Source: Rhodanobacteraceae bacterium
GTDB lineage: Bacteria; Pseudomonadota; Gammaproteobacteria; Xanthomonadales; Rhodanobacteraceae
Length of the DNA stretch: 32,358 bases
Assembly: GCA_009996615.1 (NCBI GenBank)
Contig: JAACZU010000027.1
Span: 1 to 32,358, forward strand
Direction of reading: 5' to 3'
The notes under the pieces were generated by a model. That model was given only the letters and a program-made list of their open reading frames with translations. It did not search any database and was not told where the DNA came from. The translations under genes and the position numbers were made by a program. Below, piece after piece: positions 5,323-24,169 of this stretch; within the stretch, counting starts at the first letter, position 1; each line of letters starts with the position of its first letter.

Positions 5323-8300
5323 GCCCGCAAGCCTTCCACCAGCTTCGCGATCCGCTTCGGCGACACCGGTTCGGCGGTGCGCAGTTCCTGCGCGAACGTC
5401 GACACGCGCAGTTCCTCGATCGCCCAGCGCAGCTCGGCCAGCATCGCATCCTCGCCGCGCTCGGCGCGCAGCTTGAGGTAGTCGCGCCAGTAGCCCTGCA
5501 GTCCGAGCATGCGCGCCTGGTCGCGCGCCGGGTCCTGGCGCAGGCGCTCGGCGCGCAACTTCATCGCCTTCAGGTAGCGCGGAAACTGCGCCAGTCGGGC
5601 CTTGTCGACCTCGCGCAGGAAGCCCGGCGCGAGCAGATCGTCGAGCTGCTCGCGCAGGTCGTCGTAGTTCGCGCGCGCAAAGCCCATCAGCGGCGGCTGC
5701 AACAGCGGGCGCAACTCGGCGTAGGCGGCGATGATCGCCTCCGCCTGCTTGAGCCGCTCGACCGCGGCCGGGAACAGGCCACGCGCGATCGCTTCCCTGA
5801 CATGTTCGAACGCGGCGCGCTGGCGCACGTCGAGGTCGTGCGCGGCGAACTGCTCATGCAGCGCCGCCTCCACCAGATCTTCGCGCAAAGCCTCGGCCGT
5901 GCCGATCCCCGCCCACTTCAGCATCAGCGCGTTGTTGAGCGGCAGTTGCCGCTTCGCCTGCTTGAGCCTGTCGGCGAGCGCGCGCCGCAGCAGCCGTTCG
6001 ACGCCGCGGCGGTGCTCGGCCTGCGCCTCGTCGTGGCGCTCGAACACGCGCAGCGCGACCGTCTCGCCGAGATCGACCAGCGCCGGGAACGCGGTCAGGC
6101 CGCCGCTCGAGACGATGCTGGACGGGATGTCGTCGAAGTCGAACGCATCAACCTCGTCGCGCGTCAGCTCGACGTCGGCGCGGCGCGAGAACGCGGCGCG
6201 CGCGGCGCCGGTCCACTGCGCCTGGATCGCGGCGAGGTCGCGGCCTTCGGCCAGCACGGCGCCCTTGTCGTCCTGCACGCGCACGTTCATCGCCAGGTGC
6301 GACGGCAGCACCGCCTCGGCGAAATCGGCCGCGCCGACCGCCACGCCGGTGACGCGCTGCAGGTAGCGCGCGAGCGCGACGGCCAGCGACTCGTCGCGCG
6401 GCGCCTCGGCCTCGACGAACGCACGCGCGAAGTCCGGCGCCGGCACGAAGTTGCGGCGCAAGGCCTTCGGCAGGCCGCGGATCAGTTCGGCCACCTTCTC
6501 CGCAAGCAGCCCCGGCACCAGCCATTCGCAGCGCGCCGCCGGCAGTGCATTGACCAGCGCCAGCGGCACGTGCACGGTCACGCCGTCGGACGCATCGCCC
6601 GGCATGAAGCGGTAGGACAGGCGCAGCTTGTGGCTGGCGATGTGGAGCTCGGCCGGGAAGTCGCGCGCGCCGACCCCGGGCGACTCGCCGAGGACGTCGG
6701 CCAGCGACCAGTGCAGCGCGGCCTGCTCGGCCGGCGACGCCTTGCGGTACCACGCGTCGAGCGCGGCGCTGGTGTTGATGTCGGATGGCAGCTTGCCGGC
6801 GAAGAACGCGGCCAGTTCCTCGTCCGTGCGCAGCAGGCCGCTGCGCCGGCGCTTGGCCTCGATCTCGCGCGCCTGCGCGAGCACGCGCGCATTCGCGCGC
6901 ACGAAGTCGGCGCGCGCGTCGATCTCGCCGCGCGCAAGCGCCTCGGTCAGGAAGATGCGGTGCGCCAGCGCCGGATCCTGGCGGCCGAACTGCACCGTGC
7001 GCTGCTCGACCAGGTTCAGGCCGAACAACGTGACCTGCTCATGCGCGACCACCGCGCCGCGCTTGCGCGACCAGTGCGCATCGCGCCAGCTCTTCTTGAC
7101 CAGGTGCGCCGCCTGCTGCTCGATCCAGGCCGGCTCGACGCGCGCGCAAAGCATCGCGTAGACCTTGGCCAGATCGAGGATCTGCCCGGCCAGCAGCCAC
7201 TGCGGCGCTGCCTTCGCGGTCACCGAACCGGGAAAGATCGCGAACTTGCGCTCGCGCGTGCCGCGGTACTGGCCGCGCTCGTCCTTGCGCCCGACCTGGG
7301 TCGGCCAGCCGGACAGCAGGCAGCGGTGCACGGCTTCGTACGCCGACGCGCTCAAGCTCTCCGCTTCAACGCTTGAGCCCTCCCCTTCAAGGGGGTGAGC
7401 CGGGCTTTCGATCGCGGCAGCCGGGCCGCGATCGCCGGCGAACGGCCGCACAGGGATGTGCGGACCGGACGCGCGAGCGCAGGATGCGCGAGGATTGGGC
7501 GGGGATGGTTTTTTGCTTGCGCGCCCGTCGCGTCGCTCCGGCGATGGCGCCGTCTGCCCCACCCTGCCCTTGACGGGCCGGGCGGCGGGCTGTGCCTCGC
7601 CGAGCGACCACCCCAGCTCGTCCGTCACCAGCACCAGCAGCTGCCGATGCAGCTCGCGCCATTCGCGCATGCGCAGGAACGACAGGAAATGCGCATGGCA
7701 CCAGTCGCGCAGCTTCGACTGGGTCAGGTCCGCGTGCGCCTGGCTGTACGCGCTCCACAGCCGCAGCACGCCGAGGAAATCGGACTTCGGGTCGGCGAAC
7801 TGCGCGTGCGCGGCGTCGGCCTGCGCGCGCGCGTCGGCCGGGCGCTCGCGCGGGTCCTGGATGCTGAGGAAGCTGGCCAGGATCAGCAGCTCGCGCAGCG
7901 CGCCGCGCGAGCGCGCCTCGATCAGCATGCGGCCGAGCGCGACGTCGATCGGCAGCCTGGCCATGGTGCGGCCGATCTCGGTCAGGCGTTTCTCGTCGTC
8001 GATCCCTCCCAGCTCAGCCAGGCGCCGGTAACCATCCGCAATCGCGCGCTCGCCCGGCGCCTCGACGAACGGGAACTCGGCCGGATCGCCGAGCTTCAAG
8101 GCGAGCATGCGCAGGATCACGCCGGCCAGCGACGAGCGCAGGATCTCCGGATCGGTGTAGCGCGGCCGCTGCGCGTAGTCGTCCTCGTCGTACAGGCGGT
8201 AGCACACGCCCGGACCGACGCGGCCGCAGCGGCCCTTGCGCTGGTCGGCGGCGGCCTGCGAGATCGGCTCGATGTGCAGGCGCTCGAGCTGCGTGCGCGG

Positions 8301-9467
8301 GCTGTAGCGCTTGACGCGCGCGGTGCCGGTGTCGATCACGTAGCGGATGCGCGGCACCGTCAGCGAGGTCTCGGCGACGTTCGTCGCGAGCACGATGCGC
8401 CGCTGCGGGCCCGGCTTGAACACGCGGTCCTGCTCCGCCGCGGACAGGCGCGCGTACAGCGCCAGCACCTCGGTCTCGCGGTACTGGCGCCGCGACAGCG
8501 CCAGGTGCGCGTCGCGGATCTCGCGCTCGCCGGGCAGGAACACCAGCACGTCGCCGCGCGGGTCCTCGGCGGTGATCTCGTCGGCGGCGGCGACGATCTG
8601 CTCGGAGAGGGAAAGGGAAAGGGGGTCAGAGTCACCTTTCCGACGACGGGGCTCGGATGAACGATCTGCGTCCGCGGAAAAGTGACTCTGACCCTCTTTC
8701 CCCCGCCAGCGCACCTCGACCGGATACGTGCGGCCCTCGACCTCGATCACCGGCGCACCGCCGAAATGCTGCGCGAAACGCGACGTATCGATCGTCGCCG
8801 AGGTCACGATCAGCTTGAGGTCTCGCCGCTTGGCGAGCAGGCGCTTGAGGTAGCCGAGCAGGAAGTCGATGTTGAGGCTGCGCTCGTGCGCCTCGTCGAG
8901 GATGATCGTGTCGTAGGCGGACAGCCACGGGTCCGACTGCGTCTCGGCGAGCAGGATGCCGTCGGTCATGAACTTGATCAGCGAGGCGTCCGAAACCTGG
9001 TCGCTGAAGCGCACCTGGAAGCCGACCAGCTGGCCGACCTCGCTGCCAAGCTCCGACGCGACGCGCCGCGCGACGCTGCGCGCGGCGATGCGGCGCGGCT
9101 GCGTGCAGCCGATCAGGCCGGCGGTGCCACGGCCGGCGGCGAGGCAAAGCTTGGGCAGCTGCGTGGTTTTGCCCGAGCCGGTCTCGCCGGCCAGCACGAC
9201 GACCTGGTGCTGCCGGATCAGCGCGACGATCTCGTCGCTGCGCGCGGCGATCGGCAGCGATTCGTCGACGCGGATCGCCGGCACGCGCCCGGCGCGCGCG
9301 GCACGGCGGGAAGCCGAGGCCGCGATCGCCTCGCGCAGGCGCGCCAGTTCGGCGTCGGCCGGCGCCGCGCGCGCGCCGGACAGCCGGCGCCATTGCGCCA
9401 GCAGGCGGCCGAAGTCGCGCGCCATCACACCGTCGAGCGCGCTGCGCAGGGTTTGCAGATCGGACAT
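5319..9467 (-). CDS. hrpA: ATP-dependent RNA helicase HrpA (DEAH box), with two in-frame repeat insertions
   Basis: DEAH-box helicase, 1382 aa against 1300 for E. coli HrpA; in that family it acts on mRNA and collided ribosomes. Walker A is GETGSGKT (94-101), followed by the DEAH box (191-194), SAT (223-225) and motif [12 protein letters not shown]. The HA2/OB region contains SIQDPRERP, and the long HrpA-specific C-terminal part ([42 protein letters not shown]) is complete. Two segments absent from E. coli HrpA match palindromic repeats in the DNA: residues about 255-286 between the RecA domains (8609-8704) and about 627-697 (7376-7590). Both keep the frame. The stop TAG lies inside the inverted repeat at 5302-5322. 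The gene is divergent from dps. Start ATG 9467 is supported by the natural N-terminus ([13 protein letters not shown]). Confidence 0.95.
7376..7590. repeat. Composite palindromic element inside hrpA
   Basis: Starts with CCCTCCCCTTCAAGGGGG (7378-7395), a slightly degraded copy of the palindrome at 20666 and 23982. It continues with a 10-bp hairpin (CGATCGCGGC, 7409-7418, with GCCGCGATCG, 7425-7434) and a 6-bp hairpin (CCGCAC/GTGCGG, 7446-7463). It also holds ATTGGGCGGGGATGG (7494-7508), matching the GGGTGGGGATGG tail of the other copies. In HrpA it encodes roughly residues 627-697, a low-complexity Pro/Arg/Ser segment (for example [16 protein letters not shown]) that E. coli HrpA lacks. The outer boundaries are approximate. 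Confidence 0.7.
8609..8704. repeat. Inverted-repeat element inside hrpA (GTCAGAGTCAC type)
   Basis: The left arm GGGTCAGAGTCACCTTTCC (8623-8641) pairs with GGAAAAGTGACTCTGACCC (8676-8694) with one mismatch. The arms are flanked by purine/pyrimidine tracts (GGGAAAGGG and CTCTTTCCCC) and separated by a 34-bp loop. The whole is about 96 bp, or 32 codons. It encodes the HrpA segment [20 protein letters not shown], then [12 protein letters not shown], located after the strand [12 protein letters not shown], where E. coli HrpA has only a short linker. Confidence 0.8.
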
Positions 9468-9525
9468 GCGGAAAGATCACGAACCGCGCGGGCGCGCGGC
9501 GTCAGGTGCGTTGCCGGAGGGACAA

Positions 9526-9544
9526 CGATAATTGTGGCCTATCG
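9526..9544. promoter_or_regulatory. Possible OxyR-like site upstream of dps
   Basis: CGATAATTGTGGCCTATCG contains ATAA-N7-CTAT, matching one half of the OxyR consensus ATAG-N7-CTAT-N7-ATAG-N7-CTAT. The following 22 bp match the second half poorly (ATTC-N7-TGAT). It lies about 80 bp upstream of the dps start in the hrpA-dps divergent region. OxyR control of dps is established in other bacteria; here it is only suggested. Confidence 0.35.
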
Positions 9545-9625
9545 TCGCAATTCGCAAGCGTGATTTCACGCCCGCCGCCGCTTGCGTTACCTTGGCATCT
9601 CGTCCACGTCACCCAGGAGGCAAGC

Positions 9626-10093
9626 ATGGCCATCGATATCGGCATTGCGAAGAAGGATCGGGAGAGCATCGCGAAGAACCTGTCCAAGCTGCTGGCGGAC
9701 ACCTATTCGCTGTACCTCAAGACGCACGGTTTCCACTGGAACGTGACCGGGCCGATGTTCAACACGCTGCACCTGATGTTCGAGACGCAGTACAACGAGC
9801 TGTGGACCGCCGCCGACCTCGTCGCCGAGCGCATGCGCGCGCTCGACGTCTACGCACCCGGCTCCTACACGCAGTTCGGCAAGCTGACCTCGATCGCCGA
9901 GGAGACCGGCGTGCCGGACTGGAAGGCGATGGTGCAGCAGCTCGTCGACGGCCACGAAACCGCGGCGCGCACCGCGCGCGAGGTGTTCAAGGTCGCCGAC
10001 AAGGCCGACGACCAGCCGACCGCCGACCTCGCCACGCAGCGCATGCAGGAACACGAAAAGACCGCGTGGATGCTGCGCTCGCTGCTCAAGTAG
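9626..10093 (+). CDS. dps: Dps family DNA-protecting ferritin-like protein
   Basis: 155 aa from ATG 9626, preceded by a near-perfect Shine-Dalgarno (AGGAGG, 9615-9620). Dps dodecamers oxidise Fe(II) with hydrogen peroxide, store the iron and protect DNA during starvation and oxidative stress. The intersubunit ferroxidase ligands are all in place: His37 (GFHWNVTG), His49, Glu53, Asp64 and Glu68 align at the spacing of H51, H63, D67, D78 and E82 of E. coli Dps. The N-terminal extension is short ([20 protein letters not shown]), so direct DNA binding through a long basic tail is less evident than in E. coli. It is divergent from hrpA, with a possible OxyR-like site in between. The 3' end is followed by a 326-bp repeat-rich gap in which the last 13 bp of this gene recur. 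Confidence 0.96.
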
Positions 10094-10124
10094 GCTGGCC
10101 GGCGCCTTGGCGCGGACACGCACC

Positions 10125-10196
10125 CGCCGGCCGGCGCAGGTGGCTGTAGAGGCCGTAGCCGACGCCGACGAGGCCGGTGACCACCGCCAGCACGTA
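10125..10196 (-). pseudogene. Remnant of a DUF1275 gene 3' end
   Basis: Read on the minus strand it encodes TYVLAVVTGLVGVGYGLYSH followed by LRRPAG. The true C-terminus of the neighbouring DUF1275 protein is LYVPAAATGLVGVGYGLYSH followed by LHRPA and a stop. The copy has no start, no upstream gene body and no stop at the matching position, so it is a duplicated and diverged fragment. The substitutions keep a protein-like pattern, so it may come from an older paralogue whose body was deleted. Confidence 0.7.
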
Positions 10197-10203
10197 CGTC
10201 GTT

Positions 10204-10286
10204 GTAGCCCGTGTAAGCGAAGCGCACCCGGGGCTGTGCTGCTTGCATGCATCCCCGGGTGCGGCCTACGGCCTTACCCGGGCTAC
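10204..10286. repeat. Inverted repeat (TAGCCCG...GCACCCGGG type)
   Basis: TAGCCCGTGTAAGCG...GCACCCGGGG (10204-10232) faces ATCCCCGGGTGCG...ACCCGGGCTACG (10251-10287). The structure is a strong hairpin between the copied DUF1275 tail and the copied dps end. This repeat style is common in intergenic regions of Lysobacterales (recalled from general knowledge, not checked). Confidence 0.8.
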
Positions 10287-10321
10287 GTGGCTGCTCAAGT
10301 AGGGCCATCCGCCGGCTTTGC

Positions 10322-10394
10322 GTAGGAGCGGCTTCAGCCGCGATGCTTCTGAAGGCCGAGGGCCGAAGAGCATCGCGACTGAAGGCGCTCCTGC
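10322..10394. repeat. Inverted repeat (GTAGGAGCGGCTTCAGCCGCG type)
   Basis: The left arm (10322-10349, GTAGGAGCGGCTTCAGCCG...) pairs imperfectly with the right arm (10366-10394, ...CATCGCGACTGAAGGCGCTC). It shares GTAGGAGCG with the cluster at 5249 and GAGCATCGCG with the element at 31921. It lies 25 bp beyond the stop of the DUF1275 gene and could terminate transcription from both sides. Confidence 0.8.
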
Positions 10395-10419
10395 AGCCCG
10401 TCACGATCCCGCGGCGGCA

Positions 10420-11091
10420 TCACGCCGGCCGGTGCAGGTGGCTGTAGAGGCCATAGCCGACGCCGACGAGGCCGGTGGCAGCGGCCGGCACATACAGCGC
10501 GGCGTAGGCGAACGCCTGGAACAGCCAGGTGCCGGCGACCGCGCCGGCGAGGAACGCGCTGACCAGCGCCAGCAGCAGGCGCACGCGGCGCGTGTCGACC
10601 GGCAGGCCGCGCAGGCGGTGGCCGAGGAAGATGCCGAGGTCGGTCAGCGTGCCGGAGAAATGCGTCGTGCGCAGCACTGCGCCGCTGTAGGTGCTGGCCA
10701 TCGCGTTCTGCAGGCCGCAGGCCGCCGAGGCAAGGTATTCGCCGGCGACCTGGCCGGCACCGAGCAGCGGTACCGCCGCGACAAGCAGCAGCGCCTCGAC
10801 CGCCAGCACGACGCCGTAGCGGCGGCCCAGGCGCAGGGTCGAGTCCTGGATGATGACGCCGCTGGCGACGCAGCCGGCGACGAATGCGCCGATCAGCGCG
10901 GCGAAGTGCAGCATGGCCGCCACGTCGCCCTGGCCGATCGCGGTGCCGAGCAACGTGGTCGTGCCAGTCAGGTGCGTGATGCCCTGGTGCTGCACGCCGA
11001 GGAAGCCGGTCGCGTTGATGATGCCGGCGATGAACGCCAGCACGACGCCGCCGAACAGGACCCAACGCGGCAGGCGCGCGAACATCGTCAC
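10420..11091 (-). CDS. DUF1275 (YoaK-type) inner-membrane protein
   Basis: 223 aa with about six hydrophobic segments: VLFGGVVLAFIAGIINATGF, the VAAMLHFAALIGAFVAGCVA stretch, YGVVLAVEALLLVAAVPLLG, the RLLLALVSAFLAGAVAGTWL segment and a final LYVPAAATGLVGVGYGLYS. The N-terminal G-x-INA-x-GF and the conserved LQNAMASTYSGAVLRTTHFS with GTLTDLG are signatures of the DUF1275 family. The family is thought to contain membrane transporters, but no substrate is established. The start ATG overlaps the stop of the ThrE-like gene by 4 bp (ATGA), so the two are translationally coupled. A diverged copy of its last 72 bp lies 300 bp downstream. Confidence 0.9.
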   Translation of the reverse strand: MTMFARLPRWVLFGGVVLAFIAGIINATGFLGVQHQGITHLTGTTTLLGTAIGQGDVAAMLHFAALIGAFVAGCVASGVIIQDSTLRLGRRYGVVLAVEALLLVAAVPLLGAGQVAGEYLASAACGLQNAMASTYSGAVLRTTHFSGTLTDLGIFLGHRLRGLPVDTRRVRLLLALVSAFLAGAVAGTWLFQAFAYAALYVPAAATGLVGVGYGLYSHLHRPA

Positions 11092-12344
11092 AGCTTGCGC
11101 CTCGGCGGCACCAGCAGGTCGCCGAACAGCAGGCCGGCGACGATCGCGACCAGCAGCGTGACCAGCGTGATCGCGGTGTCGATGCCGAGCGCGACGTCAC
11201 GCTCGAACACGAAGCTGAGCGTGCGGAAGCCGACGCTGCCGGGCACCAGCAGGATGATGCCCGGCTCGCGCACGAGCGCGCCGGGGCGGCTCATCACGCG
11301 CGCGAACACGTTGCTGCTGGCGCCGATCACGAGGCCGCCGATGAACACGCCGAAGGCGGACGAGACGTACATGCCGCCGAGCTGCGCGCAGACGAAGCCG
11401 AGGATGACCGCGCCGACGACCACGCCGGTGTAGCGCAGCGGGCTGCCGAACAGCACCGCGAACGCGAACGCGCCGGCCGGCACCGCGATCCACTCGGTCC
11501 ACGCGGGCACGACGTCGAGCGGGCTGGCGGTCGGCGCCCAGCCGACCACCGCGCACAACTGGCTGCCGAGCACGGTGCCGAACGCCAGCTTCAGCAGCGT
11601 CGCCAGCGCGCCCATCATGCGCGCGGTGCCGGACACCAGGTGCTGGCTCGACAGCTCGCGCACCGCGGTGGTCAGCACCATGCCCGGCATCAGCACGATC
11701 AGGCTGGCGATCACGACCGAGCGCAGCGCCAGCGGCATGACGTGCACGGCGATCGCGGTCGCCACCACGGTCGCGACCAGCGCCGACAGCGCCTCGGCCG
11801 CGGCGGCGATGCTCGGCCGGCCGATCGCGGCGATGTTGATCAGGCCGATCAGCAGGCCGATCAGCGTGGCCGAGGCGACGCCGGGCCAGCCGGTGTGCAG
11901 GATCGCCGCGATGCTGCCGGCGGAGACGCCGAAGCTGGCGACCATCAGCGCGTACCAGCCGCGCGGGCGCCGCGCCTGGCCGAACTCGCGCAGGCGCCGC
12001 AGCCCGGCGGCGAGGTCCAGGCGCCCGTCGATGACCTGGTCGCCGATCTCGTCCACCTGGCACAGGCGCTTGAGGTTGACCTCGCCCGGCGGCACGCGCA
12101 CGACCTGGGTGATCTCGGCGAGGTCGTCGCCGCGCGCCGGATCGGAGAACGACATCACGATCGAGGTCGGCGTCGACAGCACGTTGCAGTGCAGGCCGAG
12201 CCGCGCGCTGACCAGGTTGACCACGTCCTCCAGGCGCGGCGCGGCGGTGCCGTACTCGTGCAGGCGCCGCGCCAGCTCGACGATGAAGCCGATGCGCGCG
12301 TTCATCGCGGTGCGGTCGTGGCGGTCGGTATCGTCCCTGGTCAT
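11088..12344 (-). CDS. ThrE-family threonine/serine exporter-like protein
   Basis: 418 aa from ATG 12344; ATG 12305 (MNARIGFIVE) is an alternative and neither has a clear Shine-Dalgarno. The N-terminal soluble part (FIVELARRLHEYGTAAPRLE, then DVVNLVSARLGL) matches the ThrE N-domain. It is followed by about ten membrane segments in two halves, the second corresponding to the ThrE_2 half (ASPLDVVPAWTEWIAVPAGA through LLFGDLLVPPRRKL). Members export threonine, serine or related small amino acids; the substrate here is inferred only. The gene is the first of a two-gene operon with the DUF1275 protein (ATGA overlap) and is divergent from the mla-type operon across 80 bp, which must hold both promoters. 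Confidence 0.88.
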   Translation of the reverse strand: MTRDDTDRHDRTAMNARIGFIVELARRLHEYGTAAPRLEDVVNLVSARLGLHCNVLSTPTSIVMSFSDPARGDDLAEITQVVRVPPGEVNLKRLCQVDEIGDQVIDGRLDLAAGLRRLREFGQARRPRGWYALMVASFGVSAGSIAAILHTGWPGVASATLIGLLIGLINIAAIGRPSIAAAAEALSALVATVVATAIAVHVMPLALRSVVIASLIVLMPGMVLTTAVRELSSQHLVSGTARMMGALATLLKLAFGTVLGSQLCAVVGWAPTASPLDVVPAWTEWIAVPAGAFAFAVLFGSPLRYTGVVVGAVILGFVCAQLGGMYVSSAFGVFIGGLVIGASSNVFARVMSRPGALVREPGIILLVPGSVGFRTLSFVFERDVALGIDTAITLVTLLVAIVAGLLFGDLLVPPRRKL

Positions 12345-12424
12345 CGCGCAATGATGCCGTGCGCGGGGCATGCTTGGGAACGCCGCGCGTTCCGCACTCG
12401 GCGCGGGCCTGCTAGCCTTGCGCG

Positions 12425-14355: not shown

Positions 14356-14358
14356 ACC

Positions 14359-15944: not shown

Positions 15945-15967
15945 CGACGCCAGCCTTGCTTTCGAGG

Positions 15968-16000
15968 CGGATCGACGCGGATCCGATCCGCGTTGATCCG
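15968..16000. terminator. Strong bidirectional terminator-like hairpin
   Basis: CGGATCGACGCGGAT (15968-15982), loop CCG, and ATCCGCGTTGATCCG (15986-16000) form a 15-bp stem with a single G-T wobble. It sits in the 82-bp gap between the convergent mla-type operon and the dienelactone hydrolase gene, the expected place for a terminator shared by both. Confidence 0.7.
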
Positions 16001-16026
16001 TGGCCGAAGGCGCCGGCTCGCCCGGC

Positions 16027-16812
16027 CTACTTCGCGAACGCCTCGCCGAAGAACGCATGCATCAGCGCGAACGCGCGCTTCGCGGTGCGCTCGTCGTACT
16101 TGCAGCCCGGCACCGAGCCGTCGGCGGTCGGGATCGCGAAGCAGTGCACGGCGCCGCCGTAGCTGACGAACTGCCAGTCGGCCTTGGCGTCGCGCATCTC
16201 CTGCTGGAACGCGGCGATCTGCTCGGGCGACTCGAACGTGTCGTCGGCGCCGTGCAGCACGAGCACCTTCGCCTTGATCGCGTCGGCGAGCGCCGGCTCG
16301 CGCGACAGATTGCCGTGGAACGACACCACGCCCGCCACGTCGGCGCCGCTGCGCGCGAGTTCGAGCGTGGTCGCGCCGCCGAAGCAGAAGCCGAACGCGC
16401 CCCAGTGGCGGCCGTCGAGTGGCGCCTTGCCGGCCTGCGCCTTGAGCTGCGCCAGCGCGGCACCGATGCGTGCGCGCAGCCCGGCACGATCCTGATACAT
16501 CGCCTTCGTCGCTGCGCCGGCCTCGGCCGGCGTCTTCGGGCGCACGTCGACGCCGTAGACGTCGGCGACCAGCACCACGTAGTCCTTGCCGGCGATCTGC
16601 TTGGCCAGCGCGAGGTTGTCGGGCGTGATGCCGAGCCAGTCCGGCGTCATCACCAGGCCCGGCCGCGGCGTCTTCACCGCGTCGTCGTAGACCAGCACGC
16701 TCTGCATCGCCTTGCCGTCGACTGCGTAGTCGAGCGGGCGGGCGACCATCGCGGCCTGCAGTGGTGCGGCGAACAGCGTGGCGAGGGCGAAGGCGAACAG
16801 ACGCATGCGCAT
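16027..16812 (-). CDS. Secreted dienelactone hydrolase family protein
   Basis: 261 aa from ATG 16812, supported by a GAGGA ribosome binding site upstream and a signal peptide (MRMRLFAFALATLFAAPLQA, cleavage near 20). It has the alpha/beta-hydrolase fold of the dienelactone hydrolase family. The nucleophile elbow is GFCFGG with Cys143 in place of the usual Ser, as in classical dienelactone hydrolase (Cys-Asp-His triad). Asp190/191 lies in HGADDTFE and His223 in GGAVHCFA. The natural substrate is unknown; the signal peptide places it in the periplasm, unlike catabolic cytoplasmic enzymes of chlorocatechol pathways. It is convergent with the lipid transporter operon and divergent from the cytochrome c' gene (109 bp apart). 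Confidence 0.92.
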   Translation of the reverse strand: MRMRLFAFALATLFAAPLQAAMVARPLDYAVDGKAMQSVLVYDDAVKTPRPGLVMTPDWLGITPDNLALAKQIAGKDYVVLVADVYGVDVRPKTPAEAGAATKAMYQDRAGLRARIGAALAQLKAQAGKAPLDGRHWGAFGFCFGGATTLELARSGADVAGVVSFHGNLSREPALADAIKAKVLVLHGADDTFESPEQIAAFQQEMRDAKADWQFVSYGGAVHCFAIPTADGSVPGCKYDERTAKRAFALMHAFFGEAFAK

Positions 16813-16921
16813 GACGGAGTCCTCATCGAACGGGAGGCCGATCATACCTTCCGGCACGCGCCGCGGCGGTGCACTCCTATACACTCGGTCGTCCCGTTCC
16901 CCGCCCCACCGGAGCCGCCGC

Positions 16922-17377
16922 ATGCGTCGCCTTGCCCTGTCCTTGAGTCTCGTTTCCCTGGTCGCCGGCGCGGCCGTCGCGACCGCCGCGGTCAAGCCCG
17001 ATGCGGCGATCCGCTACCGCCAGAGCGCCTACACGATGATCGGCTGGAACTTCGGCCCGCTCGCGCAGATGGTCAAGGGCGAGGCGCCGTGGGACGCGGC
17101 CGCGTTCGCGCTGCGCGCCGAGCGCATCGCCGCGCTGGCGCCGCAGTTGCCCGAAGGTTTCCCGGCCGGTTCCGACACCGGCGCGAAGACCGAGGCGAAG
17201 GCCGAGGTCTGGAAGAACGCCGACGACTTCAAGGCGAAGATGGACGACTTCATCACGCAGGCGAAGGCGCTGGCCGAGGTCGCCAAGGGCGGCGACGAGG
17301 CGAAGATGAAGGAGCAGTTCAAGAAGACCGCCGGCACCTGCAAGAGCTGCCACGACGGCTACCGCAGCAAGGGCTGA
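16922..17377 (+). CDS. Cytochrome c' (class II c-type cytochrome)
   Basis: 151 aa with a signal peptide (MRRLALSLSLVSLVAGAAVA, cleavage near TAA-V). A single C-terminal haem-binding motif, CKSCH (140-144), lies in a four-helix-bundle sequence with the N-terminal pattern AIRYRQSAYTMIGWNFGPLA. Haem at the C-terminal helix is typical of class II cytochromes (cytochrome c', which binds NO/CO, or c-556). It has a GGAG ribosome binding site (16911-16914) and a TATACA at 16878-16883 that may be a -10 box. The cytochrome b561-type gene is convergent, with a large inverted repeat between the two; such b/c' pairs are common, which suggests the b-type protein as electron partner. Confidence 0.93.
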   Translation: MRRLALSLSLVSLVAGAAVATAAVKPDAAIRYRQSAYTMIGWNFGPLAQMVKGEAPWDAAAFALRAERIAALAPQLPEGFPAGSDTGAKTEAKAEVWKNADDFKAKMDDFITQAKALAEVAKGGDEAKMKEQFKKTAGTCKSCHDGYRSKG

Positions 17378-17408
17378 GGCCGGTCTCGCCGGCGCGGCCT
17401 ACGCGCGC

Positions 17409-17511
17409 GCGTAGGGTGGGACGCAGCGCCGAAGGCGCGAGTCCCACCGTGGGTGTCGGAACGGAAGAGATGGTGGGACTCGCCGCTGCGCGGCTGCGTC
17501 CCACCCTACGC
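17409..17511. repeat. Nested inverted repeat between cytochrome genes (GTAGGGTGGGAC family)
   Basis: The outer arms are perfect over 19 bp (GCGTAGGGTGGGACGCAGC, 17409-17427, with its complement at 17493-17511). The inner arms are perfect over 12 bp (GCGAGTCCCACC, 17437-17448, with GGTGGGACTCGC, 17472-17483). The right outer arm contains the TAG stop of the cytochrome b gene (17506-17508). The structure fills the convergent junction and is a likely bidirectional terminator. A related hairpin is at 26456-26486. Confidence 0.85.
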
Positions 17512-18168
17512 GGCCCGGACCAGCGCGCCGACCGCCGCCGCGCTGAGCGCGAGCAGCGCCAGCGCACGCCAGGACGACACGAAGCGCAGCGCGGGTGCGT
17601 GCGCGAAGCGCGCGCGGCCGTGCAGCATCGGCGCGACCAGGTTGTCGCGCCGCACGAGCCAGTGCAGCAGCACCGCGCCGACGTGCAGCACGATCAGGAT
17701 CACCAGCGCATCGGCGACCCAGTGGTGGATCTTCGTCAGCGTGCCCACCGCGGCACCCGACACATGCGCGGCGAGCGGTCCTTCCTCGCTGATGTCGTCG
17801 CTGGCGAACAGGCCGCTGCCGGCCTGCAGCGCGACCAGCGAGAGCAGCGCGAGCACCGACCAGCCGCCGAGCGGGTTGTGCCCGGGTGCGTGCGGCGCAC
17901 GCCCGCGCAGCGCGTCCGTCACGTATCGCAGCACCGCGCGCGGGCCGCGCACGAAATCGGTGAAGCGACTGGTCTGCGAGCCGAGGAAGCCCCACAGCAG
18001 GCGGAACACCAGCAGCGCCAGCGTCGTGTAGCCGAGCCGGAAATGCCATTGCATCGACAGCCAGCCGAACTCGCCGCTGGCGTACTGCAGCGCGATCAGC
18101 GCGACCAGCGTCCAGTGGAACAGGCGGGTCGGCAGGTCCCAGACCCTGGTGTCGGTGCCATCGTGCAT
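17506..18168 (-). CDS. Cytochrome b561-type membrane protein
   Basis: 220 aa with four main membrane helices (about 15-30, 43-62, 103-120, 150-170) and a fifth near the C-terminus (SWRALALLALSAAAVGALVR). Candidate haem ligands: His18 (RLFHW), His42 (MQWHFRLGY), His148/149 (KIHHW) and His162 (LIVLHVG). This is the pattern of the bacterial cytochrome b561 / Ni-Fe hydrogenase b-subunit family, which passes electrons between the quinone pool and periplasmic carriers. The convergent cytochrome c' gene is a likely partner. Start ATG 18168 gives the standard N-terminus (RVWDLPTRLFHW). The stop codon is supplied by the repeat at 17493-17511. Confidence 0.93.
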   Translation of the reverse strand: MHDGTDTRVWDLPTRLFHWTLVALIALQYASGEFGWLSMQWHFRLGYTTLALLVFRLLWGFLGSQTSRFTDFVRGPRAVLRYVTDALRGRAPHAPGHNPLGGWSVLALLSLVALQAGSGLFASDDISEEGPLAAHVSGAAVGTLTKIHHWVADALVILIVLHVGAVLLHWLVRRDNLVAPMLHGRARFAHAPALRFVSSWRALALLALSAAAVGALVRAA

Positions 18169-18223
18169 CGCTGCGCTCCGCAATCTTCGAACGCGCGAGC
18201 ATAGCAAGCGCGCCAACGACCGC

Positions 18224-19735
18224 TCAGGCGATGCCGAGTCCCTGGATCGTGCCGATCGCGGCAGGATCGAAGCCGGCCCATTGCGCGAATGCGTTGCCGC
18301 GCGCGGCGTAGTCCTTGAACTGGTCGAAGCTCGGCGCGCCGGGCGACAGCAGCACGACGCCGCCGGCCGGCGTGAGCGCGCGCGCGGCCTGCACCGCGTC
18401 GGCCAGCGTCGCAGCCGCGTCGAGCCGGTACGCACCACCGGTCGCCTGCAGCGACGCATGGATGCGCGCGCCGTTCGCGCCCATCGTCACGATCGCATAC
18501 GGCGGCAGCGCGCGTACCGCGTCGGCGAACGGCTGCCAGTCCAGGCCGCGCTCGAAGCCGCCGACCAGCACCGTGACCGCACGGCCGCGTAGGCTCGCCA
18601 GCGCCTCCAGCGTCGCGTGCGGCGTGGTCGCGATGCTGTCGTCGACCCAGCACAGGCCGTCGCGCTCGCCGAGCGTCTGCAGCCGGTGCGGCAGCGGGCG
18701 GAACGTCGCGATCGCCGGCGCGGCCGCGAGCGCATCCTCGCCGGCCGCCTCGAGCGCGGCGAGCGCGGCACACAGGTTCGCCGCGTTGTGCGCGCCGGGC
18801 AGCGGCGAAGCGGCCAGGTCGAACACGCGCCGTGCGCCGCGCCAGAGCGCAACGCCCTCGACATGCCAGCCGGCTGCATCGCCGAACGTGCGGCGCTGCG
18901 CGTGCGCCGCCGTGCGCGCCAGCAGTTCGGCCTGCGCGACGTTCACGACCAGCGTGCGCGCGACCGCGGCCAGCGCGAGCTTGTCGTCGGCATAGCGCGC
19001 GCGCGTGCCGTGCCAGTCGAGGTGCTCCTCGTAGACGTTGTTGAGCACGCCGACCATGACTGCGCCGGCCTCGCGCGTCTGGAAGCTCGACAGTTCGATC
19101 ACCCACCAGTCCGGCAGCGGCGACGGATCGAGCAGTTCCAGCAGCGGCAGGCCGATGTTGCCGGCCAGCGCGACGCGCCGGCCGCGCGCACGCAGCAGGT
19201 GCGCGATCAGCGCGGTGACCGTGCTCTTGCCCTTGGTGCCGGTGACCGCGATCACGCGCGCGGCGGGATGCTCGGCGAACCACAGCGCGGTGCCGGAGGT
19301 GAAGTGCGTGCCGTTGTGCTGCGCCTCGAGGATCTCCGGCTTGTACGCGCTGATGCCGGGCGACTTGATCACGACGTCGAACGCGGACAGGTCGGCGGCG
19401 GTGGGCTGACAAGGAACCACCTCGAAACCTTCATCGACGTCATTCCCGCGCAAGCGGGAATCCATTGTCTGGCCCGAAGCCGCAGGCGGCGAAGCTGGAT
19501 TACTCGCTGCGCTCGCCCCTGCGGGGCCGCCCTTCGGGCGTTCGGCGGCCTTCGCCCTTGTCCCGCTTGCGCGGGAATGACGCCCCAGGGAAATTTCCCG
19601 CGCCTCGGCCTCGCTGCAGAACAGCGTGACCGGCAGCTCCGGCAGGCGCGCGCGCAAGGCGGCCAGCGCCGCGCGGCCCTCGCGACCGTACCCCCAGACC
19701 GCAACGCGCCGGCCAGCCAGTTCAGCGAGTCGCAT
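18224..19735 (-). CDS. murD2: UDP-MurNAc-L-alanine--L-glutamate ligase MurD2, with in-frame repeat insertion
   Basis: Mur ligase adding glutamate to UDP-MurNAc-L-Ala. Next to MurL it should use L-Glu, as shown for the Xanthomonas enzyme, rather than D-Glu. 503 aa from ATG 19735 (MRLAELAGRRVAVWGYGREG); the frame continues upstream but inside murL. ATP-binding motif GTKGKST (166-172), Mur motif ELSSFQ, and the C-terminal domain with LVGGFERGLDW and LSPGAPSFDQF are present. Residues about 51-100 are an insertion encoded by a 145-bp palindromic element (19438-19582); it falls in the N-terminal UDP-binding domain after CSEAEAREIS and resumes at VVIKSPGIS. The start overlaps the murL end by 14 bp, so translation is coupled. 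Last gene of lysAC-murL-murD2. Confidence 0.93.
   Translation of the reverse strand: MRLAELAGRRVAVWGYGREGRAALAALRARLPELPVTLFCSEAEAREISLGRHSRASGTRAKAAERPKGGPAGASAASNPASPPAASGQTMDSRLRGNDVDEGFEVVPCQPTAADLSAFDVVIKSPGISAYKPEILEAQHNGTHFTSGTALWFAEHPAARVIAVTGTKGKSTVTALIAHLLRARGRRVALAGNIGLPLLELLDPSPLPDWWVIELSSFQTREAGAVMVGVLNNVYEEHLDWHGTRARYADDKLALAAVARTLVVNVAQAELLARTAAHAQRRTFGDAAGWHVEGVALWRGARRVFDLAASPLPGAHNAANLCAALAALEAAGEDALAAAPAIATFRPLPHRLQTLGERDGLCWVDDSIATTPHATLEALASLRGRAVTVLVGGFERGLDWQPFADAVRALPPYAIVTMGANGARIHASLQATGGAYRLDAAATLADAVQAARALTPAGGVVLLSPGAPSFDQFKDYAARGNAFAQWAGFDPAAIGTIQGLGIA
19438..19582. repeat. 145-bp palindromic element inside murD2 (CATTCCCGC...GCGGGAATG type)
   Basis: The ends are a perfect 22-bp inverted repeat with core CATTCCCGCGCAAGCGG (left arm 19438-19459, right arm 19561-19582). 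The interior holds smaller GC palindromes. The left half reads on the minus strand as the peptide MDSRLRGND, a signature of a repeat family scattered through many proteobacterial genomes. In MurD2 the element encodes about 48 extra residues rich in Ala, Ser, Pro, Arg and Gly. The frame is preserved. Confidence 0.9.
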
Positions 19736-21200
19736 CGAGGTAGCCGCGCAGGCGAACGGGAATCTGATGCGGGCCTTCCGGTTGCAGCAACTCCGCGAGC
19801 GCCGGCGCATCCGCCGCGAGCTGCGGCGCGATCTCGTCGGCGAAGCGCGCGACCAGCGCGTCTTCGCGCCACTCGGCGCGCTGGATGAGCGCCGCCATCG
19901 CCGCGCGCGACTCGCGCCCCTCGCCGACGCACTCGAACGGCTTGTGGTCGCGGTATTCCATCAGCGCATCGAACGCCGGCGCGAGGGCGATGTCGTCGAG
20001 CAGGTTGCGGCCGAAGATCGCGAGCAGGCGCGGCTTGGGCATGAACGGCGCCAGCGCGAGGAACACGAAGTGGCACTTCGGGCACTGGCCGCACCAGCGG
20101 TCGGCCGGTTTCGGGCCGAGGATGCGGAAGTTGCGGTTGCAGCTGGAGAACACGTCGTCGTAGCGCGCGCTGCGCGCGAAACGCTCGGCGACCGCGAGCT
20201 CGGACAGCGGCCGCAGCAGCGAGTAGTAGTCGAGGTCGGCCGCGACGCGCGACTTCAGCAGCGCATGGAAGTCGCGCTCGAAGTCCCAACCCTTGCTCCA
20301 CTGGTGGTTGACCGGCTGGCCGTCGTATTCGAGCGTCGCGCTCGAGGCCGAGCGCTCGTTCGAGAACGCGATCGCATCGAAGCCGTACAGGATTGCCGCG
20401 ACGACCAGGATCGCCGAATTGATCGCGGTGACCGGGATGTGGCCGTTGTACGCGCCGAGCTTGTTGTACTCGAACAGCACGGGCGACAGCTCGCGCCCGA
20501 TGTTCAGCCGCGGCAGGCCGGTGCGTTCGGCGCAGGCCGCGATCAGCGGCGAGTTGCCGATCCACACCGCGGTCGCGTCCTCGCCGGCGCTTTTCAGGAT
20601 CTCGACGCTGACCAGCGAATCCTTGCCGCCACCGATCGGCACCAGCGTGCGGTGCTGCCCTGAAGCCCTCCCCTTCAAGGGGAGGGTTTGGGTGGGGATG
20701 GTGTCGGTGTCGGACACGGCTGCGCGAACACCATCCCCTCCCCGGCCCTCCCCTTGAAGGGGAGGGAGAAAAGCGTGCCGGCCCTCCCCTTGAAGGGGAG
20801 GGAGAAAAGCGTGCCGGCCCTCCGCTTGAAGCGGAGCGGGAAAACGAATCCGCCCGCGCAGGTCGAGCTTGTTGTGGTAGGCGAACTCGCCGAGTCCGTG
20901 CAGGTACAGCGCATCGAGGAACGCCGCGGTTTCCGCATCGAGCGCGCTCGATTCGACACGGATCTCGGCCGGCACGCCGGCCTTGTAGTAGCTGACGCCG
21001 GCGATGAGGTGCAGCAGGTCGAGCGCGGCCTCGAACGCGGCGGCACGTTCCGGCACCGGCATCGGCGCATCCGGAAACACGATGCGCTCGATCAGCTCCG
21101 GGCCGTCGTCGAACGCGTAGACGAGCGAGGCGACGCCGTCGGCGTAGTCGCGGCGGACGAAGCGGAAGGCGTGGGCGGTGCGGGGATCGGACAGGCTCAT
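19722..21200 (-). CDS. murL: UDP-MurNAc-L-Ala-L-Glu epimerase MurL, with in-frame repeat insertion
   Basis: MurL epimerises the terminal L-Glu of UDP-MurNAc-L-Ala-L-Glu to D-Glu using ATP, an alternative to glutamate racemase known from Xanthomonas. 492 aa. Features: PP-loop-like GGGKDSL (190-196), GNSPLIAACAERTGLPRLNI, NGHIPVTAINSAILVVAA, SNERSASSATLEYDG with VNHQWSKG, and a CGQCPKCHFVFLALAPF cysteine cluster. Residues 121-182, between GRIRF and HRTLVPIGGGKDS, are encoded by palindromic repeats and contain a 12-residue unit in tandem (LPPLQGEGRHAF). Without them the protein would be about 430 aa. The ATG overlaps the lysAC stop (ATGA), and the end overlaps murD2 by 14 bp. The insert lies at a boundary between a small N-terminal domain and the ATP-binding domain. 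Confidence 0.93.
   Translation of the reverse strand: MSLSDPRTAHAFRFVRRDYADGVASLVYAFDDGPELIERIVFPDAPMPVPERAAAFEAALDLLHLIAGVSYYKAGVPAEIRVESSALDAETAAFLDALYLHGLGEFAYHNKLDLRGRIRFPAPLQAEGRHAFLPPLQGEGRHAFLPPLQGEGRGGDGVRAAVSDTDTIPTQTLPLKGRASGQHRTLVPIGGGKDSLVSVEILKSAGEDATAVWIGNSPLIAACAERTGLPRLNIGRELSPVLFEYNKLGAYNGHIPVTAINSAILVVAAILYGFDAIAFSNERSASSATLEYDGQPVNHQWSKGWDFERDFHALLKSRVAADLDYYSLLRPLSELAVAERFARSARYDDVFSSCNRNFRILGPKPADRWCGQCPKCHFVFLALAPFMPKPRLLAIFGRNLLDDIALAPAFDALMEYRDHKPFECVGEGRESRAAMAALIQRAEWREDALVARFADEIAPQLAADAPALAELLQPEGPHQIPVRLRGYLDATR
20666..20840. repeat. Composite palindrome array with 36-bp tandem unit inside murL
   Basis: Four copies of a palindrome with core CCTCCCCTTSAAGGGGAGG lie at 20666-20686, 20746-20766, 20782-20802 and (diverged) 20818-20840. 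The first is followed by GGTGGGGATGGTGT (20691-20704), whose complement ACACCATCCCC lies at 20728-20738, so copies 1 and 2 form a larger inverted pair. Copies 2-4 form a tandem array of a 36-bp unit (palindrome plus AGAAAAGCGTGCCGG). 36 bp is 12 codons, so the array reads as a tandem peptide repeat. Confidence 0.9.
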
Positions 21201-23857
21201 GGCAACACGATTTCTCCAGCCGGCTCGCGCAGGTTGTAGCGCGAGGCCATCACCGCGCCATAGGCGCCGGCCTGTGCGATCAGGATCACGTCGCCCTCAT
21301 GGCATTCGGGCAGGCGGCGGTTCGCGCCGAGCACGTCGCCGGTCTCGCAGATCGGGCCGACGACCTGCACCATCTCGCCGGCCGGCCAGTCGAGGCGGCT
21401 CAGGTTCACGATCGCGTGCCAGGCCTCGTACAGCGCCGGGCGGATCAGCGAGTTCATGCCGGCGTCGATGCCGACGTAGTTGACGAAGCCCTTGCGCTTG
21501 ACCTGCGTCACGCGCGCGAGCAGCACGCCGGCGTCGGCGACGAGGAAGCGGCCCGGCTCCATCCACAGCGCGAACTGCGGATAGGCGCGCTTGACCTCGG
21601 CCAGGCCTGCGCCGAGCGCGGCGAGGTCGAGCGGCTGCTCGTCCGGGCGCGACGGCACGCCGAGGCCGCCGCCGATGTTCAGCGATTCGACGCGGCGGAA
21701 GCCCTCGGCGAGCGCGGCGAGCTGCAGATACACCGAGCGCCAGTGGCCGGCGTCGAGGATGCCCGAGCCGGCGTGCGCGTGCAGGCCGACGATGCGCACG
21801 TGGTGCGTGCGCGCGAGCGCGCGGAACGCATCGAGCTGGTCGAGCGCGAGCCCGAACTTGGAGGTGTCGCCGCCGGTGCGCACCTTGTCGTGGTGGCCGC
21901 GGCCGATGCCGAGGTCGACGCGCAGGTGGATCTCGCGGCCGGCGAACAGCTCGCCCCAGTGCGCCAGCGGATGCAGCGCATCGACGGTCACGCGCACGCC
22001 CTGCGCGAGCGCGGCGGCGTATTCCTCGCGCGGCGCAAAGTTCGGCGTGAACAGGATGCGCTCGGACGGCAGCTGCGGCAGCGTGGCGCGCAGCGCCGCG
22101 ATCTCGCCGGGCGAGACGCATTCGAACGCGAAGCCTTCCTCGTCGAGCGCGCGCAGGATCGCCGGATGCGGATTGGCCTTCAGCGCGTAGTGCCAGCGGT
22201 CGACAATGCCCGAACCCTCACCCGGCCTTCGGCCACCCTCTCCCGGGGGGAGACGGAAAAGATTCATCAGCGCGCGCGCCTGCGCGCGGACGGTGTCGAG
22301 CGAATACACATAGCGCGGCGATTCCTCGCCCGCGAGCCGCAGCAGCGCGGCGCGCTCGCGCCGCCACCAGGTCTCCTGCGGCGCGCTGGCGCCGTCCTCG
22401 GCCAGTTCGCGCCAGCTCGGGCCGAACACCGCGCCGTCCTCGACGCGCAGCGCGTCGGCGCGGATCAAGAGCGCGTGCAGGCGCGGCACCAGCTCGTCGG
22501 CGAGCGCCTCGTCGACGACGAAGGTCAGGTTCAGGTTGTTCGACGACTGGCTGATCATGTGCACGTCGAGCGCGCCGAACTCGGCCAGCACGCCCGACAG
22601 CTTGTGCAGCAGCGAGCGCATGCCGCGGCCGACCAGCGTGATCGCGGCGCACGGCGCGATCACCTTGACGCGGCAGATTTTCGCCAGGTCCGTGGCGAGC
22701 GCGGACAGCACGTCGGAATCGACCAGGTTCTCGCTCGGGTCGAGCGACACGGTCACGTTCGTCTCGGCCGAACCGATCAGGTCGACCGACAGGCCGTGGC
22801 GCTTGAACTCGGCGAACACGTCGGCGAGGAAGCCGACCTGCTGCCACATGCCGACCGTCTCCATCGACACCAGCGTGACGCCCTTGCGCATGCTGATCGC
22901 CTTCACGCACGGCGCCGCGTCGGCCGCGGCGGCGCGGATCTCGGTGCCGGCCAGGTGCGGCCGGTTGGTGTCCTTGATCACGAGCGGCACGCCGGCGCGG
23001 CGCAGCGGGCCAAGCGAGCGCGGATGCAGCACCTTGGCGCCGGTGGTCGCGATCTCCTGCGCCTCCTCATAGCCGAGCCGGGCAAGCAGGCGCGCCTCCG
23101 GCACGACGCGCGGGTTCGCGCTGAACATGCCCGGCACGTCGGTCCAGATCTCCACGCACTCGGCCTTCAGCAGCGCGCCGAAGCAGCCGGCCGAGGTGTC
23201 CGAGCCGCCGCGGCCGAGCAGCACGGTCTCGCCGCCGTCGTTGCGCGCGATGAAGCCCTGCGTGATGAACACCTCGCCCAGGTCCGCCAGCGCGCCGGGC
23301 AGCGCCGGATCGGGCGCGGCGGGCACGCTCGCCGACAGGTAGCGCGCCCACGCGCCCTGGTTCGCCAGCGGCACCGCGCGCAGGTAGTCGCGCGCATCGA
23401 GCCAGCGCGTGGGCAGGCCGCGCGCGGTCAGGAACGCGGCACCGAGCGTGCTCGACATCAGCTCGCCGAGCGCGAACACCTCGGCCTGCCAGTCCAGCGC
23501 GCCGGAGCCGCGGCGCGGATCGGCGATCAACTGGTCGAGCCGCGCCAGCCAGCCGTCGAGCGCATTGCGCGTAGGCAGCTCGAGCGCGCGGTGCAGCGCG
23601 TGATGGCGCTCGACGATGCCGACCTGCGCCTCGCGGCAGCGCGCCTCGTCGCCGCGCGTCTCGGCGATCGCCTTGAGCAGGTCGGTCACGCCGGACAACG
23701 CCGACACCACGATCAGCACGCGCCGGCCGCGCGCGCGGTGCGCGGCGGCGATGCGCTGGATGGCCTCCCAGCGCGCGCGCGTGGCGACGCTGGTGCCGCC
23801 GAACTTGGCGACGACCCAGGGCGCGGGCGCCGGGACCGATGCGAGAGTCGAACTCAC
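21197..23857 (-). CDS. lysAC: Bifunctional aspartate kinase / diaminopimelate decarboxylase LysAC
   Basis: Fusion of the first (aspartokinase) and last (meso-DAP decarboxylase) enzymes of lysine synthesis, known from Lysobacterales. The chosen start is GTG 23857 (VSSTLASVPAPAPWVVAKFG), giving 886 aa; no suitable ATG exists near it. The kinase half has KFGGTS (18-23), FITQGFIARN, LGRGGSDTSAG, EIWTDVPGM and two ACT segments (VSMETVGMWQQVGF, ISQSSNNLNLTFVV), so feedback control is likely. The decarboxylase half has the PLP lysine Lys560 in YALKANPHP, GLHAHAGSG, NIGGGLGVP, EPGRFLVADAG and the ICETGD motif. Residues about 535-549 (PPGEGGRRPGEGSG) are encoded by a palindromic repeat 11 residues before Lys560. 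The stop overlaps the murL start. Confidence 0.96.
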   Translation of the reverse strand: MSSTLASVPAPAPWVVAKFGGTSVATRARWEAIQRIAAAHRARGRRVLIVVSALSGVTDLLKAIAETRGDEARCREAQVGIVERHHALHRALELPTRNALDGWLARLDQLIADPRRGSGALDWQAEVFALGELMSSTLGAAFLTARGLPTRWLDARDYLRAVPLANQGAWARYLSASVPAAPDPALPGALADLGEVFITQGFIARNDGGETVLLGRGGSDTSAGCFGALLKAECVEIWTDVPGMFSANPRVVPEARLLARLGYEEAQEIATTGAKVLHPRSLGPLRRAGVPLVIKDTNRPHLAGTEIRAAAADAAPCVKAISMRKGVTLVSMETVGMWQQVGFLADVFAEFKRHGLSVDLIGSAETNVTVSLDPSENLVDSDVLSALATDLAKICRVKVIAPCAAITLVGRGMRSLLHKLSGVLAEFGALDVHMISQSSNNLNLTFVVDEALADELVPRLHALLIRADALRVEDGAVFGPSWRELAEDGASAPQETWWRRERAALLRLAGEESPRYVYSLDTVRAQARALMNLFRLPPGEGGRRPGEGSGIVDRWHYALKANPHPAILRALDEEGFAFECVSPGEIAALRATLPQLPSERILFTPNFAPREEYAAALAQGVRVTVDALHPLAHWGELFAGREIHLRVDLGIGRGHHDKVRTGGDTSKFGLALDQLDAFRALARTHHVRIVGLHAHAGSGILDAGHWRSVYLQLAALAEGFRRVESLNIGGGLGVPSRPDEQPLDLAALGAGLAEVKRAYPQFALWMEPGRFLVADAGVLLARVTQVKRKGFVNYVGIDAGMNSLIRPALYEAWHAIVNLSRLDWPAGEMVQVVGPICETGDVLGANRRLPECHEGDVILIAQAGAYGAVMASRYNLREPAGEIVLP
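22211..22254. repeat. Short palindromic repeat inside lysAC (CCCTCACCCGG...CTCTCCCGGGGGG)
   Basis: CGAACCCTCACCCGGCC, TTCGGCC and ACCCTCTCCCGGGGGGAGA form a compact GC-rich repeat unlike the surrounding codons. It adds the Gly/Pro/Arg/Glu peptide PPGEGGRRPGEGSG. Other diaminopimelate decarboxylases pass directly from the helix to the strand with the PLP lysine. About 44 bp plus flanks, so roughly 15 extra codons. Confidence 0.7.
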
Positions 23858-24169
23858 GGTGTGCTCTTCAAAAAGGGGGTGTTGCGGATGGCGCGGCGCA
23901 GCATACCGCAATGGATCGGCGCGCTGCGGGCGCAAACGCGGCAACTGGGAGGCGGTATGCGGGCAGCGACCCGCGCTTTAGCCCTCCCCTTCAAGGGGAG
24001 GGTTGGGTGGGGATGGTGTTCGGTTTTCGCGTCACCCTCTCCGCAAAAACTGATCCGCGCCCCTGCGTTTTCCGCTCGCCTTCCGGCACTGCTGCGACTC
24101 AGGCATGATCGACGACTCGACCGGGGAATCGAGGTTCGTTTGCATGTGCCACCTGCTCGTCCGCTCGCC
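23858..24169. other. 312-bp divergent intergenic region, lysAC / phzF-like
   Basis: No gene is seen. On the lysAC side, a 9-bp inverted repeat GCATACCGC/GCGGTATGC (23901-23909 and 23952-23960) contains TATGCT on the minus strand, a possible -10 box about 40 bp before the start. No lysine riboswitch could be recognised. The centre holds the palindromic repeat at 23982-24023. A nine-codon reading frame (24144-24173, MCHLLVRSP) ends in an ATGA overlap with the next gene. Confidence 0.5.
23982..24023. repeat. Palindromic repeat (CCTCCCCTTCAAGGGGAGG + GGGTGGGGATGG)
   Basis: The 21-bp palindrome at 23982-24002 is identical to the one inside murL at 20666-20686, and is followed by TTGGGTGGGGATGGTGTTCGG, the same tail as in murL with one T less. 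This intergenic copy shows that the element found inside genes also occurs outside them. Confidence 0.85.

Follow-up and report, generated by a model that had tools for sequence, protein, structure and literature searches.

The window, by which we mean the whole stretch of DNA analysed (32,358 bases), is one entire contig (C27); the draft genome to which it belongs measures 3.91 Mb in 40 contigs. A similarity search returned Rhodanobacteraceae and Dokdonella as the nearest records to the MurL protein of the window, and the host genome appears to be Dokdonella-like, from the genus Dokdonella or one very near it. Five segments that the earlier note had described as in-frame palindromic inserts were located at the positions given in Table 1, inside the long open frames of hrpA (two segments), murD2, murL and lysAC. 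The hrpA product contains the Pfam domains DEAD, Helicase_C, OB and DUF3418, and the lysAC product contains AA_kinase and decarboxylase domains. The start of murD2 is likely to lie near residue 27.

Table 1. Host genes and repeat elements in the window.
Feature	Position	Strand	Remarks
hrpA, ATP-dependent RNA helicase, 1382 aa	5319-9467	-	two inserts; TIGR01967 equivalog, 1495.7 bits, in two stretches
H element and second degenerate P-like end	7376-7590		encodes most of hrpA residues 623-707
T element with inverted ends: one carries GGGGTCAGAGTCAC, the other has a single mismatch	8609-8704		reads KEGQSHFS...KGDSDPLS in hrpA
murD2, MurD-type ligase	18224-19810	-	host of U; TIGR01087, 309 bits; open frame
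U element, spacer between two inverted arms of the GTCATTCCCGCGCAAGCGGGAAT type	19438-19582		reads RHSRASG...MDSRLRGND in murD2
murL, UDP-MurNAc-L-Ala-L-Glu epimerase	19722-21200	-	host of P; NF041275 MurL, 760 bits, in two stretches
P array in murL	20666-20840		includes a P / inverted-P pair (20666-20766); other parts in the text
lysAC, fused aspartate kinase / diaminopimelate decarboxylase	21197-23944	-	host of S; NF006515, 1237 bits
S element in the decarboxylase half of lysAC	22211-22256		reads FRLPPGEGGRRPGEGSG; core palindrome 22236-22256
Single P unit beyond the 5' end of lysAC, outside long genes	23980-24020	+	

Several repeat families are involved, as had been proposed, and all of them (P, H, T, U and S) are dispersed in the genome. 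The P unit comprises about 41 bases around CCTCCCCTTSAAGGGGAGG, and 171 cores were found genome-wide at ≤2 mismatches; the S core occurs at 61 sites, and the U core at 29 positions in 21 places, 8 of which are pairs by our own count. The reversed-pattern controls gave 0 for each of these three cores. Similarity matches to the window segments within their own genome, including the segment itself and both strands, numbered at least 92 for P (with 40 of 182 first-look candidates scored), at least 27 for H (40 of 357), at least 24 for U (40 of 112), 16 for S and 7 for T. Alignment of 21 copies showed that H is a P unit (41 bases) opened by about 98 bases. Family T is rare, being found in hrpA, in a cluster at C11:64 kb, where the copies read in frame in an FAD-monooxygenase gene, and in a short frame at locus L164; the T-like pair at this last locus was considered as a further gene insert and was not counted, as it sits in a frame of 52 residues.

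Inverted pairs with a spacer are present in murL and murD2. In the murL array, 36 bases are moreover duplicated in tandem (20742-20813), and a fourth unit is degenerate. The core palindrome of S, with 8 of 9 positions paired, extends two bases past the end noted originally (22254). No Rfam family matched when the window was scanned. Fifteen congeners, of which four are <90% complete, have 0 to 19 P cores per genome compared to 171 here, and P has therefore expanded in this genome, in agreement with the proposed spread of the repeats within it. Other repeats seen in the window are an inverted repeat at 17408-17512, whose 41-base arms are 88% complementary and which resembles another palindromic family, a 73-base direct repeat with 89% identity (10125-10197 and 10423-10495) and a copy of repeat K close to the contig end (31881-32000).

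The folding of each segment was scored against 200 dinucleotide shuffles. The hrpA T (z of −9.1), murD2 U (−7.0) and murL P (−10.2) segments fold far better than their shuffles, as does the murL P / inverted-P pair alone (−10.6), while hrpA H has a z of −2.6, with 2 of 200 shuffles equally good. Four of the five segments thus fold better than shuffles, but the 44-nucleotide lysAC piece, as bounded, is not a strong hairpin: its z was +1.1, and 181 of 200 shuffles folded equally well. A first description of all five as strong hairpins therefore does not hold for lysAC. Across long loops in general, the advantage in folding over controls is modest, with z of <−2 in 19 of 72 compared to 27 of 200.

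All five segments are read in frame without stops. The lengths of four of them (215, 145, 175 and 44 bases), however, are not multiples of three, and retention of the frame must therefore depend on changes at the junctions as well; in murL, native loop residues have been lost. AlphaFold2 gave confident folds overall for MurL and MurD2 (mean pLDDT of 83.7 and 83.6, respectively). Stretches with pLDDT of <50 were residues 127-131, 133-169 and 418-421 in MurL and residues 53-98 and 495-502 in MurD2, and in each protein the long stretch is the insert. In these models, the inserts of both proteins are predicted to be low-confidence loops without regular structure in otherwise confident folds, and an inserted repeat probably forms an extra disordered loop. 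Five inserts in 15 kb appear dense, but no statistic can be attached to this density, because the window was chosen for those inserts.

Relatives were compared for HrpA (29 sequences), MurD2 (78), MurL (80) and LysAC (78), and each insert of the window falls in a loop of variable length. Typical loop lengths in relatives are 4 residues in murD2, 18 in murL and 3 in lysAC, compared to 53, 64 and 19 here. The two hrpA loops are long and variable in many relatives, with medians of 18 and 47 residues and ranges of 8 to 44 and 13 to 98, compared to 30 and 94 here. The solved HrpA chain 9ggr, which we take to be from Escherichia coli, has 4 residues where the HrpA of the window has 85 (623-707), and other sequences lie between the protein stretches flanking this site in the hrpA genes of relatives. 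The murD2, murL and lysAC loops are thus short in most relatives, and the sequences of the loops are not conserved.

Judged by sequence, the same loops appear to carry different repeats in related bacteria. A T insert is present at the same hrpA site in relative L120, and murD2 of L045 has a U-type RHSRESGNP...DSRFRGND in the same loop. In murL, the loop contains the likewise U-type RHSREGGNP...DPGLRRGDG in L075, with a similar stretch in L042, and SPLRGEGRGEG types in L083, L090, L105 and L112. A neighbouring loop of lysAC in L111 reads PSPHGRG...PSPRGRG, while hrpA (L120, L121) and murD2 (L060) hold other repeats. Outside the four genes, a valine--tRNA ligase of Dyella jiangningensis contains an S pair in frame (L114:17471-17583).

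Enrichment was assessed with 60 linkers at least 10 residues longer than usual (the median or, for the second hrpA site, the lower quartile) and 600 segments of equal length taken from the same genes outside linkers. The search space was 1.05 Mb of DNA from relatives, in which the four genes had been masked. At ≥40 bits in ≥2 foreign loci, 13 of the 60 long linkers and 3 of the 600 controls gave matches, and at ≥44 bits in ≥2 foreign loci, 12 of 60 and 0 of 600 did so. Excluding the rows of the window left 12 of 55 and 3 of 550 at 40 bits and ≥2 foreign loci (Fisher test, 3.6e-11) and 11 of 55 and 0 of 550 at 44 bits. Some of these cases are shared by descent (e.g., the four murL loops of the SPLRGEG type), and the 12 matches are therefore not 12 events. 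Among other linkers, 1 of 173 matched at 40 bits and 0 of 173 at 44 bits, with 5 of 1,730 of their controls at either threshold. At the loosest setting (36 bits, one locus), 22 of 60 long linkers and 98 of 600 controls matched, and at the main threshold (40 bits, ≥2 foreign loci), no foreign-repeat match was found for 47 of the 60. None of the relatives compared had an empty site near enough to reveal junctions or a target duplication.

A codon model trained on 16 gene segments of the window was applied to 111 repeat blocks after 4 blocks at contig edges had been dropped, with an offset allowed for blocks shorter than the insert. Twelve of the 111 were classified as in frame and open; murD2, whose upstream flank overlaps murL, was for that reason included manually as a further case. 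Since this set had been seeded by the in-frame copies of the window itself, two further samples were taken in contig order. In the first, drawn from the earliest sites in that order, 5 of 51 exact P cores, in four genes, were in frame; the remaining 46 included 5 in a shared frame with stops, 10 between different frames of the same strand, 4 between opposite strands and 27 without a confident coding call on one or both sides. In the second, only two of the 15 exact S cores examined were in frame, and each of these lay in RibD. Sixteen copies with close flanks but no read-through were also translated on either side and the products searched for domains; in none of the 16 had a gene been split into halves. 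In one case the two products were tandem acetyltransferase domains, each of them complete; one gene on the left ran off its locus, and for one left-hand product the match was weak. The ends of some genes are overlapped by copies, e.g., the tail of a CcmF protein.

In-frame copies are carried by nine genes outside the window, encoding MetG, RsxB, RibD, DsbD, HrpB (with both K and P copies), MetH (above the curated cutoff) and, below the cutoff, a formate-dehydrogenase-like protein, an FAD-monooxygenase of the VioC/KMO type and a large fragment of a putative Lhr-type helicase, a label that is our own reading of a match to an ATP-dependent helicase. A single reading register per family was considered and dropped, as S uses all three registers and P is mixed. 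Among 17 compiled cases in which a second register was open, 13 used the most hydrophilic of the open registers; 4 of 17 were against this, 6 further cases had no alternative and the cases were hand-picked, making the test weak. The register data are modest evidence that tolerance at the protein level sorts the copies.

Additional stretches were noted at some loci. Two P units (L186:1743-1782 and 2376-2416) form the C-terminal tail of a CcmF protein and lie at the start of the frame for a CcmH protein. A helicase frame of >1,000 residues (L227, C1:397295-400313) has a P unit; inspection by eye also showed GNGESGIV...DSRFPIPDS and a stretch resembling K. The MetH frame (L173, C10:67074-71130) has an S pair; a different loop of it reads GNRESGNGNRE, which resembles a further repeat family.

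The genome contains two Y1_Tnp genes. One of them, on C8 (L149:1349-2190, near 68.4-69.2 kb), encodes 232 aa (open reading frame at 1462-2160) and is closely flanked by inverted GGGGTCAGGTTCACTT ends resembling T, forming a TIRYT-like unit; GGGGTCAG is located at L149:1349 and its complement at 2167, i.e., in both inverted ends. In the T element of the window, one end has the GGGGTCAG octamer, and the opposite end has a form of it with one mismatch. The bases following the octamer differ between T and the ends of the C8 gene (AGTCAC against GTTCAC), and this locus gave no T match in BLAST; the link between T and the Y1 gene is therefore plausible, not proven. The second Y1_Tnp gene (L150, C3 near 7.4-10.8 kb) lies beside arrays of family K with a spacing of about 88 bases. 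No matches of >12 bases to P, H, U or S were found in the 3.3 kb around either gene. The suggestion that a tyrosine (Y1) transposase mobilized the repeats can thus be retained for T, whose octamer and near-match make movement by a RAYT/TIRYT-type enzyme plausible, but neither gene could be linked to P, H, U or S.

We consider it probable (about 0.85) that the five segments belong to several unrelated families of short mobile repeats, copies of which inserted widely and survived in frame in loops tolerant of length change. This reading draws on comparison of sequences, which documents the dispersal of the families, their in-frame reading, their absence from most orthologues, their position in variable loops and the foreign-repeat matches in the loops of relatives. 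Repeats of the REP, inverted-REP-pair or MITE type would have spread through the genome, presumably by transposition, with insertion probably blind to genes. Copies that broke genes would have been removed by selection, leaving those outside genes or at gene ends and an in-frame, stop-free minority in length-tolerant loops. A repeat in frame would be translated as an extra, probably disordered loop and would then drift, and the same loops in related species would be filled by other repeats. Of the two meanings that "selection for readable copies" might have, survival of harmless insertions fits the absence of split genes among the 16 copies examined, but elements that evolved for readability are unsupported.

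The segments could instead have been kept because they are useful, whether to the protein as linkers, to the mRNA of long genes as hairpins or at the DNA level as sites of the REP type. Usefulness might explain why the same loops are reused across species, why relative L120 has a T insert in the same hrpA loop and why the most hydrophilic open register prevails among the hand-compiled cases. It is less easily reconciled with the lack of conservation in loop sequences and with the short murD2, murL and lysAC loops of most relatives, and the register test, with its exceptions, its cases without an alternative and its hand-picked sample, adds little; we regard this explanation as unlikely.

Much less probable still is that slippage in a GC-rich genome produced the long loops as ordinary linkers of low complexity, which would then only resemble repeats. 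Such an origin would accommodate the wide variation of hrpA linkers in all relatives, the large number of long linkers that match no foreign repeat at the main threshold and the unremarkable folding of the lysAC piece. For the inserts of the window, it is contradicted by near-exact copies elsewhere in the genome, by the long inverted arms in hrpA T, murD2 and murL and by the enrichment of long linkers over same-gene controls, although slippage may account for part of the other long linkers. An artefact of assembly or annotation is the least credible explanation: the genome is a draft in 40 contigs, some of which end in H copies (C6:1-64 and C9:150556-150619), but the frames are open across all inserts, and similar inserts occur in records of named isolates such as Frateuria terrea, Rhodanobacter glycinis and Dyella jiangningensis.

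With the segments read as surviving copies of mobile repeats, the genome provides a case, outside Rickettsia, in which several conserved genes carry in-frame copies from several repeat families, and it belongs to a bacterial family whose species could be compared to follow insertion, tolerance and decay. It is also a warning that such peptides in protein alignments can be derived from repeats. A broader and doubtful extension, which we offer tentatively, is that mobile palindromes are a main source of new loop sequence in housekeeping enzymes across Rhodanobacteraceae; a small number of length-tolerant loops would be recurrent landing sites, filled independently by unrelated families in different species, a hydrophilic register would tend to be kept and the inserts would wear into ordinary-looking linkers.

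In-frame palindromic elements were, according to reviews, first described in Rickettsia. The outcome seen here, palindromic repeats in frame within conserved genes, is like that of the Rickettsia elements as those reviews describe them, in accordance with the earlier note; this likeness is one of description rather than sequence, and the present host is a gammaproteobacterium with a 3.9-Mb genome and families of units of ∼40 to 145 bases. The implied restriction of such inserts to Rickettsia does not hold, since a 2013 study (PMC3733652) reports intragenic GTAG/CGTC REPs in many species, including Xanthomonas, Stenotrophomonas and Opitutus. Those REPs are mostly intergenic, but some lie within genes, among them genes for RNA helicases, for tRNA synthetases and for repair. 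Dimers or groups make up more than half of the intragenic REPs, different REPs occupy approximately the same recB site in two Xanthomonas species, and loops and linkers were proposed as tolerant sites (PMC3733652). Among the titles listed in literature searches, which is no proof of absence, there was none on palindromic inserts in Dokdonella or Rhodanobacteraceae.

Inverted pairs of short palindromes with a spacer, as in murL P and murD2 U, are also characteristic of REPINs (PMC3116915). In contrast to REPINs and their RAYTs, neither P, H, U nor S was found flanking a Y1 gene here; the commonest 16-mers of that study, with 1,067 occurrences, overlap genes in only 14 cases. Family T resembles the TIRYT type, described in PMC3733652 as a Y1 transposase gene with inverted repeats matching GGGGWSAS and a few dispersed copies of similar ends: the C8 Y1 gene has inverted ends matching GGGGWSAS, but T is found in frame inside hrpA and a monooxygenase gene, and its ends differ from those of the gene after the octamer. 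Intragenic ERIC/MITE fusions of enterobacteria (PMC2229807) are likewise mobile elements fused in frame to genes, in another host group, and are likened to the present inserts by description. The P unit, as typed from the alignment, shares with the GTAG/CGTC REPs its short palindromic form and its presence in some genes but has neither tag on either strand. Since intragenic in-frame REPs beyond Rickettsia are already in print (PMC3733652), the present case is broad but of a known type. It differs from the REPs reported there in having several families in one genome and loop reuse at several sites in four genes across a bacterial family, and it is this reuse of the same loops by different families that appears to extend beyond the known cases.
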